Below, one piece after another: positions 26,628-38,590 of a DNA stretch of 64,000 nucleotides; the first letter of the stretch is position 1, and each line of letters opens with the position of its first letter. The notes beneath the pieces were generated by a model. That model searched no databases and was not told the origin of the DNA. It worked only from the letters and a program-made list of their open reading frames with translations. A program made the translations under genes and the position numbers. The DNA lies in assembly GCA_026014735.1 (NCBI GenBank), contig JAOZHT010000001.1:434001-498000 (forward strand). Reading direction: 5' to 3'. The stretch comes from Candidatus Bathyarchaeota archaeon. Lineage in GTDB: Archaea > Thermoproteota > Bathyarchaeia > Bathyarchaeales > Bathycorpusculaceae.

Positions 26628-27287
26628 TTGTCAGAACGATTCGCTAAAAAGTGGGAAGCAAAACGTGATGAGCAAGCATTCGGGGACCGCATAAAAGACG
26701 CAGTAAAACCGCCGGGACCACTCAAACCACGTCTTGACTTCGCAGTCAGACGCATTGAACTCCAAGTCCAAAAACTCGACCAGGCAAACGAAAGATTCAG
26801 CCAACGCGACAAAGCCATCTTCGCACGCATCGTCGACGCATACACAAAGCATGACAGTGCACGCGCAAACGTCTTCGCAAACGAACTTGCAGAAGTTAGA
26901 AAAATGTCCAAGTTAATCATGAATGCTAAACTTGCTCTCGAGCAGATTACATTAAGATTACGAACTGTATCAGAATTAGGCGACGTAGTCTCTACACTCG
27001 GCCCAGCTGTCGGTGTTCTACGCTCGGTCAGATCAGGCTTAGTCAGTGTATTTCCAGAGGCAGAAAATGAACTTGGCGAAATCGGTAACATGCTTAGCGG
27101 AATCATGATTGAAGCTGGCCAAGGCAGCGGCATGACCCTCAACTTCGACACAGTCAACGAGGACGCATCAAAGATCCTAACTGAAGCAGCAACTGTTGCA
27201 GAGCAGAAAATTAAAGACAAGTTCCCAGACCTACCCCCAGGAATGCCATCGACCCCTGCTTCTCAGGCAGAGAAAACAACATTCTAA
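26628..27287 (+). CDS. cdvB: ESCRT-III-like protein (CdvB paralog without winged helix)
   Basis: This 219-residue helical protein matches the Snf7 core: RIELQVQKLDQANERFSQRD (45-64), ANELAEVRKMSKLIMNAKLAL and RLRTVSELGDVVSTLGPAVG. The tail has a proline-rich KFPDLPPGMP, resembling a MIM2 motif that binds the Vps4/CdvC MIT domain. It forms filaments that constrict the membrane at division. It starts at TTG with GAGG seven bases upstream. It is followed by cdvA, the second cdvB and cdvC, all tightly spaced. The C-terminal winged helix of the longer paralog is absent. Confidence 0.87.
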   Translation: MSERFAKKWEAKRDEQAFGDRIKDAVKPPGPLKPRLDFAVRRIELQVQKLDQANERFSQRDKAIFARIVDAYTKHDSARANVFANELAEVRKMSKLIMNAKLALEQITLRLRTVSELGDVVSTLGPAVGVLRSVRSGLVSVFPEAENELGEIGNMLSGIMIEAGQGSGMTLNFDTVNEDASKILTEAATVAEQKIKDKFPDLPPGMPSTPASQAEKTTF

Positions 27288-27307
27288 GATAAGGAGGAAA
27301 ACAAAAA

Positions 27308-28039
27308 ATGTCCTACTCCAATCTTTTTCTCTCTATCGGTAAACCCATCAAGAACGAATACGGACGAGTAATCGGAAAAGTCGCATCATTTGCGCTCTCA
27401 CCAAACGGCAAATTCGACGCAGCATACATCGAATTTGGCGACGGCCAATTCTCCAAGCAGCCCATGGAAAGCCTACGTTTCAGTGGCGCTGAAATCACAT
27501 TCATCTCAAAAATCAAATCACAAGCAGGCATCCTTTGTGATCACATACCCCTCATCTGGCGCAAAGACGAAGCCCTAAAGGATCTGGTGGATAAAAAGAA
27601 AATCACCCCTGACGTTTACCAGGAACTCCACAGCAGCTTCGAAAGCGTCCTCTCCCAGCTTAAGAAGGAAGCGCAAGTAATCATCGACGAATCATCCATA
27701 GAAGTCGAGCGCTGCCAGGAAGAGATTTCCTCGCTAAGCTACGCGATTGCTAACTTGGAAATCGAGCATGAAATCGGCAAAGTCGACGATGAAAACTACA
27801 GTGCAGCCTTCGGGCTTTTGCAAGAAACCCTGCGGCGGGCAACCACCGAGAAAACTGACTATGAACTCACCAAGAGCCGCCTATCCAGTGTGCTATTGGG
27901 CGAGCAAAGCCAGCCCGCACCTAAGCCTCAGCCGGTTGCAAACAAGATTTACGCCGAGCAGGTTACTAACACAGCTACCAAGCTACCTGAGCCCCCTGTT
28001 GTCGTCTACGTGAAAGATATCGGAAAAACAAGCGCTTAA
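27308..28039 (+). CDS. cdvA: CdvA-like division protein
   Basis: The 243-residue protein starts with a PRC-barrel-like beta domain (about 5-75: GKPIKNEYGRVIGKVASFAL). A coiled coil follows at about 90-190. The C-terminal segment ends PEPPVVVYVKDIGK, resembling the ESCRT-III-binding peptide that recruits the CdvB winged helix. CdvA binds DNA and membrane and positions ESCRT-III at mid-cell; it is characteristic of TACK archaea. AAGGAGG lies just upstream of the ATG. It sits second in the operon. Confidence 0.85.
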   Translation: MSYSNLFLSIGKPIKNEYGRVIGKVASFALSPNGKFDAAYIEFGDGQFSKQPMESLRFSGAEITFISKIKSQAGILCDHIPLIWRKDEALKDLVDKKKITPDVYQELHSSFESVLSQLKKEAQVIIDESSIEVERCQEEISSLSYAIANLEIEHEIGKVDDENYSAAFGLLQETLRRATTEKTDYELTKSRLSSVLLGEQSQPAPKPQPVANKIYAEQVTNTATKLPEPPVVVYVKDIGKTSA

Positions 28040-28079
28040 ACGGGAATGGACTACACGGTAGGTTGTGGAGGGACAAGAC

Positions 28080-28991
28080 ATGAAAAGCTTCACTAACCAA
28101 TCCCCTCCCCCTATTCGTGAAGTCGCCACTAAATCTATTTATACACTTAAAATCCAGCAGAACAAGCTGGAGCAAGCAAGTTTTCGCCTTAAAGAGCGGG
28201 ATCGTGTTCTTTTTGAAACCTGCATGAGTGCACTTAAAAAGAACAACAAAGACAAAGCAGCGATTTGCGCCACCGAAATCGCTGAGGTCCGCAAGTTAAT
28301 CAGCTTCATCGGTAACGTGCATTTAGCCATTGAACGGGTTGTTATGCGCCTTGAAACCATCAAGGAACTCGGTGACATAGTCACTGACCTTAAACCTGCA
28401 CTTACCCTGCTTCAGGGTGTTTCCCAGCAGCTATTCCAGGTGCTTCCTGATGTAAGCAGCGAACTCAGTAACGTTAACTCAACTATTCAGGAAACCCTCC
28501 ATGCTACCAAGCTCTCCGCCGACGAGAACCTGGTTCCAGTGGGCAAAAAAACCGAGGCGGGCGAAGAAATCCTAAAGGAGGTCTCCTGCTTTATGGAGCA
28601 AAAACTCTCCGAAGCCCTGCCTGAGCCGCCTGCTGCGGCGCCAGTCAAGGAGAAAGTAGCTAAAGAGCCTCAAACTCCCATCCGGGAATTGGTGGCTTTA
28701 ACCGCGAGTTCCTCGCAGGTGTTTGGCAAGAAAACCGTTGAGGAAGCAGGGTTTGACCCCGAGAAATCCATGTTTACCTTCAAGAAATCCGAGATTAAAG
28801 AGTTCTCGCTTAAAGTTACCAAGCCAGCGTTGGAAGACGTGCTTTTAGAGTACGTGCGTAAAAGCAACGGCGAAATCGATTTAAGCCGATGTTCCAATGA
28901 ACTGCAGACTTCCAACGAGGAAATTGAACGTGCCCTCGAAGCGTTAGGAACGCAGGGAAAAATCAAGATAGAGTTACGTTCGCCTGAATAA
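28080..28991 (+). CDS. cdvB: CdvB with C-terminal winged helix
   Basis: The protein is 303 residues from ATG 28080, which follows GGAGG at 28067-28071; a GTG at 28065 would place that site inside the gene. The Snf7 core includes NKLEQASFRLKERDRVLFE and AICATEIAEVRKLISFIGNV, a match to the first cdvB. A proline-rich linker (PEPPAAAPVKE) leads to a C-terminal winged helix (about 240-303: LEDVLLEYVRKSNGEIDLSR). That domain receives CdvA's tail. This is the canonical CdvB; the upstream copy is its shorter partner. Confidence 0.88.
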   Translation: MKSFTNQSPPPIREVATKSIYTLKIQQNKLEQASFRLKERDRVLFETCMSALKKNNKDKAAICATEIAEVRKLISFIGNVHLAIERVVMRLETIKELGDIVTDLKPALTLLQGVSQQLFQVLPDVSSELSNVNSTIQETLHATKLSADENLVPVGKKTEAGEEILKEVSCFMEQKLSEALPEPPAAAPVKEKVAKEPQTPIRELVALTASSSQVFGKKTVEEAGFDPEKSMFTFKKSEIKEFSLKVTKPALEDVLLEYVRKSNGEIDLSRCSNELQTSNEEIERALEALGTQGKIKIELRSPE

Positions 28992-29020
28992 GCAAACGAG
29001 AAGGAGAGAGAAAAAATCAA

Positions 29021-30202
29021 ATGAGTGCTTCAAACGAGTTAGAGAAAGCGGCAACAGCGTATGCTTTGGATGCTGTGCGCCTAGATAAGCAGGGGCAGAA
29101 AGGCAGAGCCATAACCCTCTACCAGAAAGCCATCGAGAGCCTCCTGCAGCTGGTGCAGCTTTATCCGGAGTATGGCCTCAATAAAGTTTACGTGCAACGC
29201 GCAATCGCCTACCAGGAGCGCATAAAGGCGCTTCAGGGAGCAGTTTCGCCGATGGAGATGAATCAAGCAGCCAACGAAGACGGCGAAGGAGGAGGAGCAG
29301 CAACCATGGATGGAAACGGATTAGCTAAACCCAACAATGAAGAGTTAGTGATCACCGAGAAACCTAAAGTTAACTGGGACGAAGTTGTCGGCTTAGACGT
29401 CGCTAAAAAAGCCGTTAAAGAAGCCATCGTTTACCCCGTGCAGCGCCCTGACTTGTTCCCGTTGGGGTGGCCAAGGGGCATCTTGCTGTTTGGTCCTCCG
29501 GGCTGCGGCAAAACCTTGCTGGCGGCTGCGGTGGCAACGGAGATCGAGGCGAATTTCTACTCGATTGATGCAGCTTCGATTATGTCTAAGTGGCTGGGCG
29601 AAGCCGAGCAGAACGTGGCAAAGCTGTTTGGTTCAGCACGCAAGAGCAGCAACGAGGGCAAACCCGCCATCGTATTCGTGGATGAATTGGACTCGCTTAT
29701 GGGCGCTCACACTAACGAGGTCGGCGGCGAAATCCGCGTGCGCAACCAGTTCCTTAAGGAGATGGACGGCATCATGGATAAGGGCAAAGCGCTCCACGTC
29801 TACGTGATCGGCGCAACCAACAAGCCCTGGGACCTGGACTGGGCGTTTATTCGACGGTTCCAGAAACGCATCTTGGTTCCGCTGGCAGACCATGGTACAC
29901 GCCTCAGCATGCTCAAGCTCTACTCGAGCAACCTGCAGATTAGCCCAGACGTGGACCTGCATGAACTCGCAAGGCTCGCCGAGGGCTTCTCGGGAAGCGA
30001 CATACGCGATGTTTGCCAGTCTGCGCAGCTTAAACTCATCGGTGAATTCTTCGAGTCAGGCAAAGCCATGGACAAGGAAGCAAAGCCGCGTCCGTTGACG
30101 ATGGCTGATTTCCGCCAGATACTGGAGGAACGCAAACCCAGCGTCTCGCTGGATATGCTTTCGATGTATAACCGATGGTTCGAGGCATTCAAGGCACTAT
30201 AG
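29021..30202 (+). CDS. cdvC: CdvC / Vps4-family AAA ATPase
   Basis: This 393-residue protein has an N-terminal MIT domain (1-75, helical, YQKAIESLLQLVQLYPE) and an AAA domain. The AAA domain carries Walker A GPPGCGKT (158-165), Walker B IVFVDELD (217-224), sensor GATNKPWDLDWAFIRRF with the arginine finger, and a C-terminal helical part. Vps4 disassembles ESCRT-III filaments during scission; the MIT domain would bind the MIM2-like tails of the two CdvB proteins. It has a GAAGGAGAGAG ribosome-binding site and closes the operon. Confidence 0.93.
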   Translation: MSASNELEKAATAYALDAVRLDKQGQKGRAITLYQKAIESLLQLVQLYPEYGLNKVYVQRAIAYQERIKALQGAVSPMEMNQAANEDGEGGGAATMDGNGLAKPNNEELVITEKPKVNWDEVVGLDVAKKAVKEAIVYPVQRPDLFPLGWPRGILLFGPPGCGKTLLAAAVATEIEANFYSIDAASIMSKWLGEAEQNVAKLFGSARKSSNEGKPAIVFVDELDSLMGAHTNEVGGEIRVRNQFLKEMDGIMDKGKALHVYVIGATNKPWDLDWAFIRRFQKRILVPLADHGTRLSMLKLYSSNLQISPDVDLHELARLAEGFSGSDIRDVCQSAQLKLIGEFFESGKAMDKEAKPRPLTMADFRQILEERKPSVSLDMLSMYNRWFEAFKAL

Positions 30203-30599
30203 GAGGCAAAGCAAAAGCAAGGGTACAGGCGGGTTGGGTGGAAAGGTTTGGAGAACAATAATTTTTGCACGCTCTCCCTTCTCCCCCCTCAAACTATCTC
30301 CAGGCCCCACAAACCCCAAAGGTCAACCCGCCTAAACCTCGCTTGCTTGCACAGACCTATCCCCCCTCTATATATAGCAATCAAAACCTGCGTTAGCTGT
30401 TTTTGTCTGGTTGTTTTGGGTGGGGCCGCTATTTTTTTGCTCATACTCACCTCTCTTAGTTTGAGGTTTGTTTTGAATAAAGTTTGCGTTAGAGCATCGC
30501 TGCTTCACTTTCGCTGTCCCCTCCACTGCCGCCGGGCGTCGTTTGGCTGATAATTTAAATAAGCAAAACCTGCCACAAAGGGGTTTTCGGGAGAAAAAC
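30203..30599. other. Intergenic region with repeat element B
   Basis: No gene is supported in this 397-base gap; the frames in it lack ribosome-binding sites and plausible composition. The minus strand carries the second copy of the TATA/G-run element at 30337-30377. An AT-rich TAATTTAAATAAG at 30551-30563 is the promoter of the RecA-like gene. Confidence 0.5.
30337..30377 (-). repeat. TATA/G-run element, copy B
   Basis: Read on the minus strand it begins with CTATATATAG, then AGGGGGGATAGG and GTGCAAGCAAGC, in the same order and spacing as copies A and C. Transcription would head back toward the 3' end of cdvC across a GC-rich stretch, with no gene in that direction. Confidence 0.5.
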
Positions 30600-31334
30600 A
30601 TGCAGAACCTAACCTTTAAACCAGCCCTAACGCGGAACGAGCAACCAGCGCTTTCGCTGAATATGCCTCTTCTCGACGGGCTTTTCCCCGGGTTTAGCTG
30701 CGGCGACTTCGCTGTCCTCTATGGTTCCCGCTCCGTGACCTCGTTGACTTCCCTGCTTTGCGTGCGGGCGCAGTTGCCGGTGCAGCTGGGCGGCTTAGCA
30801 AGCAGCGTGGTCTTCATCGACGGCGGCGTCACCTTTCGCCTCTACAACGTAGCCCGCTTAGCCCAGCTCTACCAGCTTAACCCCGAGGGGGCGCTAAAGA
30901 AAATCTACATATCCCGAGCCTTCACCGCCTACCAGCTAACCGCCCTGATAATGGAGCGCCTCGAGCAAGCCGTGGCGGCATACAACGCCAAAGTCGTCGT
31001 TATCTCTGATTTAGCAGGCTTTTTCCTTGACAACAACATCGCCGCAGAGGAGGCTCAGCGCATCTACAGCCAACTCGCCACCTACCTCGCCAACTTCGCC
31101 CGCCAACACCAAATCGCCCTCATCGCCACGTATCTGCCTCATCAGGGCAGCAAACGGGAAAGCCTCCTCCAGGAAGTAACCGCCAAATACGCCAGCACCG
31201 TGCTGCGCTTCACCAAAACATCGCATGGCAAAGAAGTCGCCCTCGAAAAACACCCCACCTACAAGCTGGGCAGCGCTGACTTATCAGCCAAAAAACTCGC
31301 CTTAACAGATTTTATGGGTGGCGGCGTTGGGTAA
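30600..31334 (+). CDS. RecA/RadA-superfamily protein with degenerate Walker A
   Basis: This 244-residue protein has the RecA-core layout: LSLNMPLLDGLFPGFSCGDF, a P-loop position reading LYGSRSVTSL, a strand with VVFIDGG, and a Walker B-like VVVISDLAGFF. Lysine and threonine of GxxxxGKT are missing, so ATP binding is doubtful. I start at ATG 30600 behind GGGAG, since the in-frame TTG at 30543 precedes the TATA box. The gene overlaps the next by 17 bp and leads to a PolB in the same direction. By analogy with bacterial ImuA/SulA-like RecA paralogs that serve error-prone polymerases, it may be an accessory factor. RadB is an alternative. Confidence 0.7.
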   Translation: MQNLTFKPALTRNEQPALSLNMPLLDGLFPGFSCGDFAVLYGSRSVTSLTSLLCVRAQLPVQLGGLASSVVFIDGGVTFRLYNVARLAQLYQLNPEGALKKIYISRAFTAYQLTALIMERLEQAVAAYNAKVVVISDLAGFFLDNNIAAEEAQRIYSQLATYLANFARQHQIALIATYLPHQGSKRESLLQEVTAKYASTVLRFTKTSHGKEVALEKHPTYKLGSADLSAKKLALTDFMGGGVG

Positions 31335-31608
31335 AACCGTTGAATCCTACCGCATGGCAGTCGAGGATGAAATCCGCCGCTGGAGCGGCTTTGCCAAAGC
31401 CCTGCGCCGAGAAGACCGCGAAGCCTTCGACGCCCTCATGGATGCCTGCCGCAGCTACGCCTCAGCCGCCAGCAACGCCACCAAACCCATCCTCTTCGAA
31501 CCCATGATGATGTCGATTGTGCTTTCCCAGCAAATCCGCATAGAGCATCTGCAGAGGGAAATCGATGACCTCAAAACCCACCGGTCCAGCAGCGCCCAGC
31601 AAGGTTAA
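31318..31608 (+). CDS. 96-residue helical protein between RecA-like and PolB genes
   Basis: It starts at GTG 31318, overlapping the RecA-like gene by 17 bp, and ends 44 bp inside the PolB gene. It is charged and helical: EDEIRRWSGFAKALRREDRE, FDALMDACRSYASAASN, and a C-terminal SQQIRIEHLQREIDDLKTH resembling a short coiled coil. I cannot assign a family. Its strict overlap with both neighbours implies a subunit or bridge of one complex. Confidence 0.75.
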   Translation: MAALGKTVESYRMAVEDEIRRWSGFAKALRREDREAFDALMDACRSYASAASNATKPILFEPMMMSIVLSQQIRIEHLQREIDDLKTHRSSSAQQG

Positions 31609-33865
31609 GGGCTGGATTTTAGATGCTTACCCAACCGAAGCCGGACGCGTGGCGGTTTGGGTGATTTCTGAGTCGGGGCAACGCATCCGCCTAACCGACC
31701 GCTTCCAGCCCTGCATCTACGTCTCCGCTAAACAGGAGGACCTAGACGGGCTGCTAAGCAAACTCTGCAGCAACCAAAAAATCGCTTCGCTACGCTTCAC
31801 CGAGAAGTATGCCCAGCCCATCGACAGCGAAAAAACGCGGGTTCTGGAGTTAACCGTTAGGGACTGCAGGCAGATTCCCCAGTTGACGCTGGAGGTTCTG
31901 CGTTTAGGCGATTATCTGCGTTATGAAGTCCACAACTGCGATGTCCACAGTGACCGCAGCTACTTTTTCAGCCGCGACCTGTTCCCCCTCGCCTACGTGG
32001 AGGTGGAGGCGGGCAAAGCGGGCTTAAGCTACAGGCTGCTGGACAGCGTGGAAAGCACCGACTATGCAGTGCCTGAGCTGCGTGTGCTGCGGCTAGCGGT
32101 GGATGTCGCCAAACAAGGTATCCTGCCCAGCTTTGATGATCCCATCGAGAAAATCCGCATCCAAACAGGCACCCGCGGGGAAATCGAGATAGACTACGGC
32201 GACGAAGCCACCAAGCTGCTGCAGCTCTCCTACGCCGTCGCCGAATTGGATCCCGACGTAATCCTCACCAGCTCAGGCGACTCCTTCCTGTTTCCCTACC
32301 TGATTCAACGCGCCACCGCAAACGGGGTCTTCGACGAGTTCCTCCTCAGCCGCGACAAGGTGCCCTTTAACCGCCGTTTAGCCGCGGGCAAAACCTACTT
32401 CTCCTACGGCCACACCTTCTACCGCGCCGGCGCCGTAAGGCTCTATGGGCGAATACACATCGACGAAGCCAACACCTTCATCATGAAGGAATCCAGCTTC
32501 CAAGGCCTCATCGAGATAGCCCGCACCTGCCGGGTGCCACTGCATACGGCGGCTAGGTTCTCCATCGGCTCAAGCATGTCCTCCATCCAGTTCTACCAAG
32601 CCCAAAAAGACGACGTATTGCTGCCCCGCAACAAAAAAATCCCCGAAGCCTTCAAGTCCGCGTTGGATTTGCTGGTGGGCGACCGAGGCGGCTTCGTCTT
32701 TGAACCCCGAGTGGGCCTCTACAGCAGCATAGGCGAGCTTGATTTCTCCTCGATGTATCCCTCGCTTATGCGCAAATACAATATATCCGCTGAAACGGTG
32801 CTCTGCAAATGCTGCCCGGATTCGCCGGTGCGGATTCCAGATTTGGATTATCACATCTGCACCAAACGCGTAGGCATGGTTCCTAAAACGGTGGATTTAG
32901 CGTTGACTAAACGCTTAACCTATAAGCGCCTAAGAGACGAAGCCTCCGATGGGCGGCAGCGGGAAATCTATGATGCACGCCAGACCGCGCTGAAGTGGAT
33001 ACTGGTCACCTGCTTTGGCTACTTGGGGTTTAGCAACTCCAAATTCGGCACCGTCGATGGGCACATCGGTGTCTGCGCGTTTGCCCGCGAAGTCTTCCTT
33101 AAAGCAGCGCATATCGCGGAGGACGCGGGGTTTGAGGTGATTCATGGCATAGTGGATTCGCTGTGGCTAAAAAAACCCGACGCTACAATGGAGGACTACC
33201 GTCTGCTATGCAGAAAAATCACAGAGGAAATCGGTGTGCCCATCAACTTTGAGGGACGCTACAAGTGGATAGCTTTCTTGCCCTCAAGACTGCATCCCCG
33301 CGTCGGCGTCCTCAACCGCTACTTCGGCGCCTTGGAGGGCGGCAAAGTCAAAGTCCGAGGTTTAGCTGTGCGCCGCCGCGACACCCCCAAATTTGTCTAC
33401 GACGCCCAAACCGACATGATAGATGCGTTGTCCCCCGCCGGCGACGCCGACGAGGTTTACAGGCGCATCCCCCAAGCCATCGGGGTGCTGCGCAGCTATC
33501 GGCAGCGGCTCATAGACGGCGACGTGGCGCTCCCCGATTTAATCGTGACCAAGCATATGTCGCGCCCCATCAGCCAGTACCGCCAGCAAGTCAGCCAAGT
33601 CATCGTTGCCCAGCAGCTGGCCAGCTACGGCGTGGATTCGCAGGCAGGCAACAGCGTAAAGTTCCTCTTCACCAGCCATCAAAATAAGCGATTTATGCGC
33701 AGGGTCAAAGCGGCGCAGCTAATCGAGAAGGACACAAACCCCGATGTCAAAAAGTACCTGCTGCTCCTCTATGACTCCGCCGCTAACCTGCTGAGTTTTG
33801 CCGGCTACACCCCAGATAGCATGTATGAGGCAGTTATGGGGCAGCAGCAGAAGCGGCTTCTCTAA
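31565..33865 (+). CDS. Family B DNA polymerase with altered catalytic motifs (PolB2-like)
   Basis: The 766-residue polymerase keeps motif A ELDFSSMYPS (391-400, Asp393) and KVKVRGL near 594. Motif C reads HGIVDS (527-532) where active enzymes have YGDTDS, so the first aspartate is Ile529 while Asp531 remains. Motif B reads LKWILVTCFGYLGFSNS with Thr/Cys where Asn-Ser is usual. Exo I is LAVDVAKQG (one acidic residue) and Exo II is SSGDSFLFPYL, so proofreading is probably lost. A cysteine group C414-C432 may bind zinc. This fits the PolB2/Dpo2 group linked to translesion synthesis rather than the replicase. Confidence 0.85.
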   Translation: MTSKPTGPAAPSKVKGWILDAYPTEAGRVAVWVISESGQRIRLTDRFQPCIYVSAKQEDLDGLLSKLCSNQKIASLRFTEKYAQPIDSEKTRVLELTVRDCRQIPQLTLEVLRLGDYLRYEVHNCDVHSDRSYFFSRDLFPLAYVEVEAGKAGLSYRLLDSVESTDYAVPELRVLRLAVDVAKQGILPSFDDPIEKIRIQTGTRGEIEIDYGDEATKLLQLSYAVAELDPDVILTSSGDSFLFPYLIQRATANGVFDEFLLSRDKVPFNRRLAAGKTYFSYGHTFYRAGAVRLYGRIHIDEANTFIMKESSFQGLIEIARTCRVPLHTAARFSIGSSMSSIQFYQAQKDDVLLPRNKKIPEAFKSALDLLVGDRGGFVFEPRVGLYSSIGELDFSSMYPSLMRKYNISAETVLCKCCPDSPVRIPDLDYHICTKRVGMVPKTVDLALTKRLTYKRLRDEASDGRQREIYDARQTALKWILVTCFGYLGFSNSKFGTVDGHIGVCAFAREVFLKAAHIAEDAGFEVIHGIVDSLWLKKPDATMEDYRLLCRKITEEIGVPINFEGRYKWIAFLPSRLHPRVGVLNRYFGALEGGKVKVRGLAVRRRDTPKFVYDAQTDMIDALSPAGDADEVYRRIPQAIGVLRSYRQRLIDGDVALPDLIVTKHMSRPISQYRQQVSQVIVAQQLASYGVDSQAGNSVKFLFTSHQNKRFMRRVKAAQLIEKDTNPDVKKYLLLLYDSAANLLSFAGYTPDSMYEAVMGQQQKRLL

Positions 33866-38170: not shown

Positions 38171-38590
38171 ATGGCAAAATTGATGATTTATACCGATGGC
38201 GGCGCAAGAGGCAACCCGGGTCCCTCTGCTATAGCGTTTATCGCCACTGACAGCCAGGGCGTAACCCTCCAGTTGGGTTCCCGCTACATCGGCATCCACA
38301 CCAACAACCAAGCCGAGTACCTGGCGCTTCTCATGGCATTGCAGTACGCCCTCGACGTTAAAGCCACTGAAGTGCTCTGCCACCTAGACAGCGAGCTTGT
38401 GGCTAAGCAGCTAAACGGACAATATGCAGTTAAGAATCCCGAGTTACAGAAGCTTAACGTTCAAGTCAAAGCTTTGATGGGTGGCTTTAAAAAAATCGGT
38501 TTCGTAAACGTGCCAAGAGAGCATCCGCAGATAGCACGCGCGGACGGCTTAGTCAATAAGGTCCTCGATGAGCAAGCGCGGAAACGTTAG
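38171..38590 (+). CDS. rnhA: Ribonuclease HI
   Basis: The 139-residue enzyme has all four catalytic acids: Asp9 (IYTDGGARGNPG), Glu49 (NNQAEYLAL), Asp73 (HLDSELVAKQLNG) and Asp125 (ARADGLVNK). It cuts RNA in RNA-DNA hybrids. It is the compact type without the basic protrusion. It ends directly against a convergent gene. Confidence 0.94.
   Translation: MAKLMIYTDGGARGNPGPSAIAFIATDSQGVTLQLGSRYIGIHTNNQAEYLALLMALQYALDVKATEVLCHLDSELVAKQLNGQYAVKNPELQKLNVQVKALMGGFKKIGFVNVPREHPQIARADGLVNKVLDEQARKR

Follow-up and report, generated by a model that had tools for sequence, protein, structure and literature searches.

A bathyarchaeal PolB2 mutasome operon and a shared promoter box that may mark a DNA-damage regulon

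A three-gene operon encoding iRadA, PPB2 and PolB2 occupies positions 30600-33865 of the + strand of the window, the whole 64-kb stretch of bathyarchaeal DNA analyzed here. We are highly confident that this locus is a PolB2 mutasome operon whose products would act as a damage-inducible translesion complex. Its identity is apparent from the domains and residues of the encoded proteins, the co-occurrence of the three genes and a promoter element shared with other genes. The association of iRadA, PPB2 and PolB2 in operons was described in 2014 (Makarova et al., PMC4104785), and the PolB2 mutasome was modelled in 2025 as an iRadA:PPB2(3):PolB2 heteropentamer (Timinskas et al., PMC11791011), a study whose main text does not name Bathyarchaeota. 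A sequence-only reading of the window had suggested a possible archaeal mutasome, which was the right interpretation but not a new system, as it corresponds to the published PolB2 mutasome (PMC11791011; PMC4104785). What goes beyond the literature searched is the shared promoter box with its putative regulon and the persistence of iRadA without PolB2; in published PolB2 mutasome work, we found no description of either or of separated operons.

The first gene of the operon encodes an inactive RadA homologue. All three genes lie on one strand and overlap, as had been read from the open reading frames before. The 44-bp overlap between PPB2 and PolB2 (31565-31608) stands, with the PolB2 ATG common to a relative (L007) and preceded by GAGG, while the overlap of iRadA and PPB2 is 8 bp instead of the 17 bp proposed earlier because PPB2 starts at TTG 31327 and not at GTG 31318. 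iRadA (30600..31334, +) is a RadA/Rad51 homologue lacking the N-terminal domain, with 244 amino acids compared to 355 in RadA (Pfam Rad51, E 1.2e-15), and its best PDB matches are archaeal RadA proteins (2.6e-19). The loss of the Walker A lysine from this RecA-like protein, noted previously, is confirmed by alignment, where GSRSVTS stands opposite GSGKS of RadA. The C-terminus, KLALTDFM, resembles a clamp-binding motif without the canonical glutamine, and L235 and F238 of its xxLTDF segment are nearly invariant in the alignment and residue table. A cell-division cluster (CdvB/Snf7, CdvA, a second CdvB and CdvC/Vps4; 26628-30202) is located directly upstream of the operon. A link to cell division was considered and dropped, as the cdv genes are not kept beside the operon in relatives and approximately 400 bp and a promoter lie between them. 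About 4 kb downstream of the operon, an RNase H-like gene is found (38171-38590; Pfam RVT_3, 1.8e-17).

PPB2 carries the conserved N-terminal arm known from the published complex. The gene (31327..31608, +) encodes an arCOG07300-like protein of 93 amino acids with a predicted structure of three helices (residues 5-25, 28-50 and 57-92; mean pLDDT 76). The nonamer MGKTVESYR, with small substitutions, opens PPB2 in all 27 aligned sequences; M, G, T, S, Y and R are invariant, position 3 is always lysine or arginine and position 9 always arginine, the window protein having K3 and R9. This conserved N-terminus is obtained with the TTG start, and GTG 31318 was rejected as the start codon; GGTGG at 31317-31321, around that GTG, is likely a ribosome site. 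The published arm reads MGRT, arginine being conserved at positions 3 and 9 (PMC11791011). The window sequence matches this arm and differs in having lysine rather than arginine at position 3.

PolB2 is a Dpo2-like B-family polymerase that retains catalytic aspartates but has an altered motif C. The 766-residue protein (31565..33865, +; Pfam DNA_pol_B, E 2.3e-31) was compared with 73 relatives in a wide alignment of 74 sequences. The changes that the sequence-only reading had listed are all found: motif C reads HGIVDS instead of YGDTDS with Ile529 in place of the first aspartate in 74/74 sequences, motif B has lost its Asn-Ser (KWILVTCFG versus KVILNASYG), and the exonuclease motifs, read by eye against PolB1, are degraded with most of their acidic residues gone. 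Asp393 and Asp531, reported as kept, are present in every one of the 74 sequences, and Lys477 and Gly485 are likewise invariant. The predicted structure is of moderate confidence (pLDDT 71) and matches the fold of archaeal PolB structures (E 1e-37). Earlier, PolB2 had also been considered as a possible high-fidelity replicase. This role is unlikely: the genome encodes two further PolBs with an intact YGDTDS motif, which are likely the replicases. PolB2 as the sole bypass polymerase was also rejected, given that a DinB-type Y-family polymerase gene is present in the genome.

The operon agrees with the published PolB2 mutasome in gene order, in an inactive RadA without its N-terminal domain, in a three-helix PPB2 with MG(R/K)T and R9, in the aspartate to isoleucine change of motif C, in a D(K/R) pair and possibly in a clamp-like motif in iRadA. 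In the published model, a PolB2 loop resembling the Rad51 oligomerisation motif binds iRadA just before the D(K/R) pair, and the PPB2 trimer puts one N-terminal arm between PolB2 and iRadA (PMC11791011). At the place of this loop, the window PolB2 carries the segment F363-K-S-A366...D373-R374-G-G (32651..32692, +), in which a loop that may bind iRadA precedes the D(K/R) pair, judging from conservation and from the binding role proposed in PMC11791011. F363 and A366 are invariant in 26/26 close relatives and present in 63/74 and 50/74 sequences of the wide set, respectively, while D373 and R374 are found in 74/74. The FKSA loop has a pLDDT below 50 in the single-chain PolB2 model and is unresolved there. 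The earlier proposal of the middle protein as a bridge is thus partly in line with the published model, in which one PPB2 arm is inserted between the partners but PolB2 also contacts iRadA directly.

Complex formation, error-prone synthesis and damage induction are predicted from the published model and by analogy with Sulfolobus Dpo2. After DNA damage, a transcription factor would act at a promoter box at 30504, and the three genes would be transcribed from the TATA box at 30554. PolB2, using Asp393 and Asp531 for catalysis and lacking a working proofreading site, would copy past lesions or extend mispaired ends. iRadA, as an ATPase-dead copy of RadA, would hold PolB2 via the FKSA loop, mimicking the contact between RadA subunits, and its C-terminus may tether the complex to PCNA. 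The PPB2 trimer would set one MGKT...R9 arm in a cleft near the active site.

Two other interpretations of the operon were weighed. PolB2 could be catalytically dead, as proposed in 2014 (PMC4104785), with the complex playing a structural or regulatory role in marking or clearing stalled forks or acting at origins. The replacement of the first motif C aspartate in all 74 sequences and the altered motif B would fit this proposal, but the invariance of Asp393, Asp531, Lys477 and Gly485 across the same alignment argues against it, as does Sulfolobus Dpo2, which has the same aspartate to isoleucine change (PMC11791011), is active and mutagenic (PMC11791011, PMC7390963) and, in Sulfolobus islandicus, is needed for targeted mutagenesis (PMC7390963). 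We therefore regard a dead polymerase as improbable. It is still harder to credit that the locus represents a new and independent archaeal mutasome analogous to ImuA-ImuB-DnaE2. The operon does pair an inactive RecA-family protein with the gene of an error-prone polymerase, and a polymerase of this type joined to a RecA-family protein is also what characterizes E. coli Pol V (UmuD'2C-RecA) and ImuA-ImuB-DnaE2. The operon differs from both in using a B-family polymerase without UmuD and without a Y- or C-family subunit; neither ImuB (Y-family) nor DnaE2 (C-family) is encoded in it, the B-family enzyme being its sole polymerase. Moreover, the genes are homologous to arCOG07300/iRadA/PolB2 operons, and none of the sequence features that define the published PolB2 mutasome and could be tested here failed.

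The three genes co-occur across archaea, and iRadA is also found without the polymerase. Looking for the three genes together elsewhere had been proposed in the sequence-only reading, and the iRadA-PPB2-PolB2 order indeed recurs in Bathyarchaeota, Methanomethylicota, Nitrososphaerota/Thaumarchaeota and Thermoplasmatota. Among 151 genomes of the order, mostly MAGs in which absence of PolB2 is judged from the assemblies, 54 contain a close PolB2, which is accompanied by both PPB2 and iRadA in 49 of the 54, an association that is not due to chance. Eight genomes carry one PPB2-PolB2 pair without iRadA upstream. These split operons were considered as mutasomes that lost iRadA, an explanation rejected because iRadA is located elsewhere in 8/8 such genomes. 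Conversely, 21 of the 151 genomes, all from the family of the window and 19 of them at least 90% complete, contain iRadA without a detected PolB2 or PPB2. In a tree, these solo copies nest among operonic ones, the label requiring about nine changes, and they look like copies that departed from the operon several times. Solo iRadAs keep L-E-K-H and a C-terminal L-x-x-F/Y (30/30 each), the latter resembling the clamp motif that has been reported in other iRadAs. Since iRadA persists without PolB2 and PPB2 while keeping this clamp-motif-like C-terminus, it probably has a second role beyond the mutasome. One solo iRadA (L070) stands after a CdvB gene. The genome of the window itself encodes a second iRadA at C4:25338 (C4:25197-25991; locus L056 7282-8037) with its own operator box and a neighbourhood, including a ThiF/MoeB-like gene and a membrane protein, that is conserved in several relatives.

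The iRadA promoter contains an operator-like box at a fixed distance from the TATA box. The box was first seen before TATA in an alignment of iRadA upstream regions. In the window, it reads TTCACTTTCGCTGTCCCCTCCACTG (30504..30528, +) and is followed by a second conserved promoter element, GTCGTTT (30538..30544, +), and by the TATA box TTTAAATA (30554..30561, +), which lies 50 nt downstream of the first box position. The box consensus of about 25 bp is TTCACTTTnA(C/G)TnACCYCTCCMCTG, and across 95 sites GTnGTTT is conserved at +34 to +40 relative to the box. Using a PWM trained without the window's own site, the box scores 40.7 and is the only hit in 64 kb, compared to at most 2.4 in mononucleotide-shuffled windows, indicating that it is not a generic part of promoters. 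Part of the training set consisted of sites found by pattern, which makes conservation at the pattern positions circular; TATA spacing, target genes and split operons are not affected. The box-to-TATA spacing is 50 nt in 7/7 iRadA promoters tallied and 51 nt in 11/11 RadA promoters and 18/18 promoters of small-protein family D. A simple dyad (TCACT-TTC-AGTGA) was discarded as a description of the box; RadA has it in perfect form, but the remaining sites do not conserve it.

The box occurs at seven sites in the window's genome. A search of the 2.9-Mb genome with the 24-mer of the box, allowing at most three mismatches, returned seven sites and none for the reversed control, the window's copy being among the weaker ones with two mismatches. 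The targets are RadA, the mutasome operon, the second iRadA, a DUF559 gene (C2:109757, locus L266; Pfam 4.6e-9), which we take to belong to a nuclease-like family, and three small conserved genes: a KLMVYAS family (C2:492592, locus L263), a two-gene C..PW pair (C1:977055, locus L265) and an LTLHN family (C1:618169, locus L264), none of which matches a Pfam family above the cut-off. With a shorter pattern and at most one mismatch, sites are present in 28/32 genomes of the genus and absent from the control. In the order, box sites occur in 54/151 genomes, all in the window's family, again with none in the control, and by PWM the box is weaker or absent outside this family. In other families of the class (L029, L033, L099-L107), the box upstream of iRadA retains its left half, TTCACTTTCACT, and the right half changes. 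RadA is a recurrent boxed gene, with 11 sites read directly and 12 more assigned by coordinates against RadA places. Where iRadA is apart from PPB2-PolB2, both units are boxed. Box and TATA precede 7/7 of the separated PPB2-PolB2 operons that could be read; the match is clear in six and weak in one (L026, PWM score 17.3). At the sequence level, this distribution suggests co-regulation of the mutasome with RadA. Several solo or broken PPB2 genes and near-identical copies of the box were also noted (L237, L239, L240, L280, L238, L209, L250, L256), for example TTCACTTTCACTTACCTCTCC five times in one genome (G112), observations that suggest repeated spread of box and PPB2.

Taken together, the boxed genes look like a DNA-damage regulon. 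On balance, we favor an SOS-like damage regulon of Bathyarchaeia in which an undescribed operator (the box, GTnGTTT and TATA at 50-51 nt) would drive RadA, the PolB2 mutasome, extra iRadA copies, the DUF559 nuclease-like gene and several small proteins; in many genomes, iRadA would have become independent of the mutasome and would function in the absence of PolB2, with the clamp or RadA filaments as possible targets. The box could instead be a general promoter or growth-phase element, which would make the regulon uninformative about DNA damage. Several boxed genes encode small proteins without assigned function, as might be expected for such an element, but only seven sites exist in 2.9 Mb, RadA, the mutasome and the second iRadA are among them together with a nuclease-like gene, and the window contains a single PWM hit, so that we consider a general element less likely. 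A comparable case is S. islandicus with Dpo2 and the Orc1-2 DNA-damage regulon, where a PolB2 polymerase and a promoter element before damage-response genes (ANTTTC) are likewise found (PMC7390963, PMC9738581). Part of the boxes here contain ACTTTC, which fits that element. In contrast, the bathyarchaeal box spans about 25 bp, has CCYCTCC as one half and keeps a fixed spacing to TATA, and RadA is a main target. Equating the box with the Sulfolobus ANTTTC (Orc1-2) element is not supported, as position 8, the last C of the hexamer, is C in 55%, A in 26% and T in 19% of the 95 sites, although the window's copy has ACTTTC. In the open-licence literature searched, a damage regulon with a promoter element was found only for Sulfolobales and none for Bathyarchaeota.

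With this operon, the published complex, known so far from models, reaches Bathyarchaeota, and its predicted contacts can be examined at the level of sequence. The operator carries more weight than the operon itself. To our knowledge, archaea lack a LexA-type SOS system, and the candidate regulon is compact and control-clean and joins a recombinase with an error-prone polymerase. The small-protein families C, D and E behind the box are candidates for roles in repair. If true, the regulon would open damage-induced mutagenesis to experimental tests in a large class of uncultured archaea.
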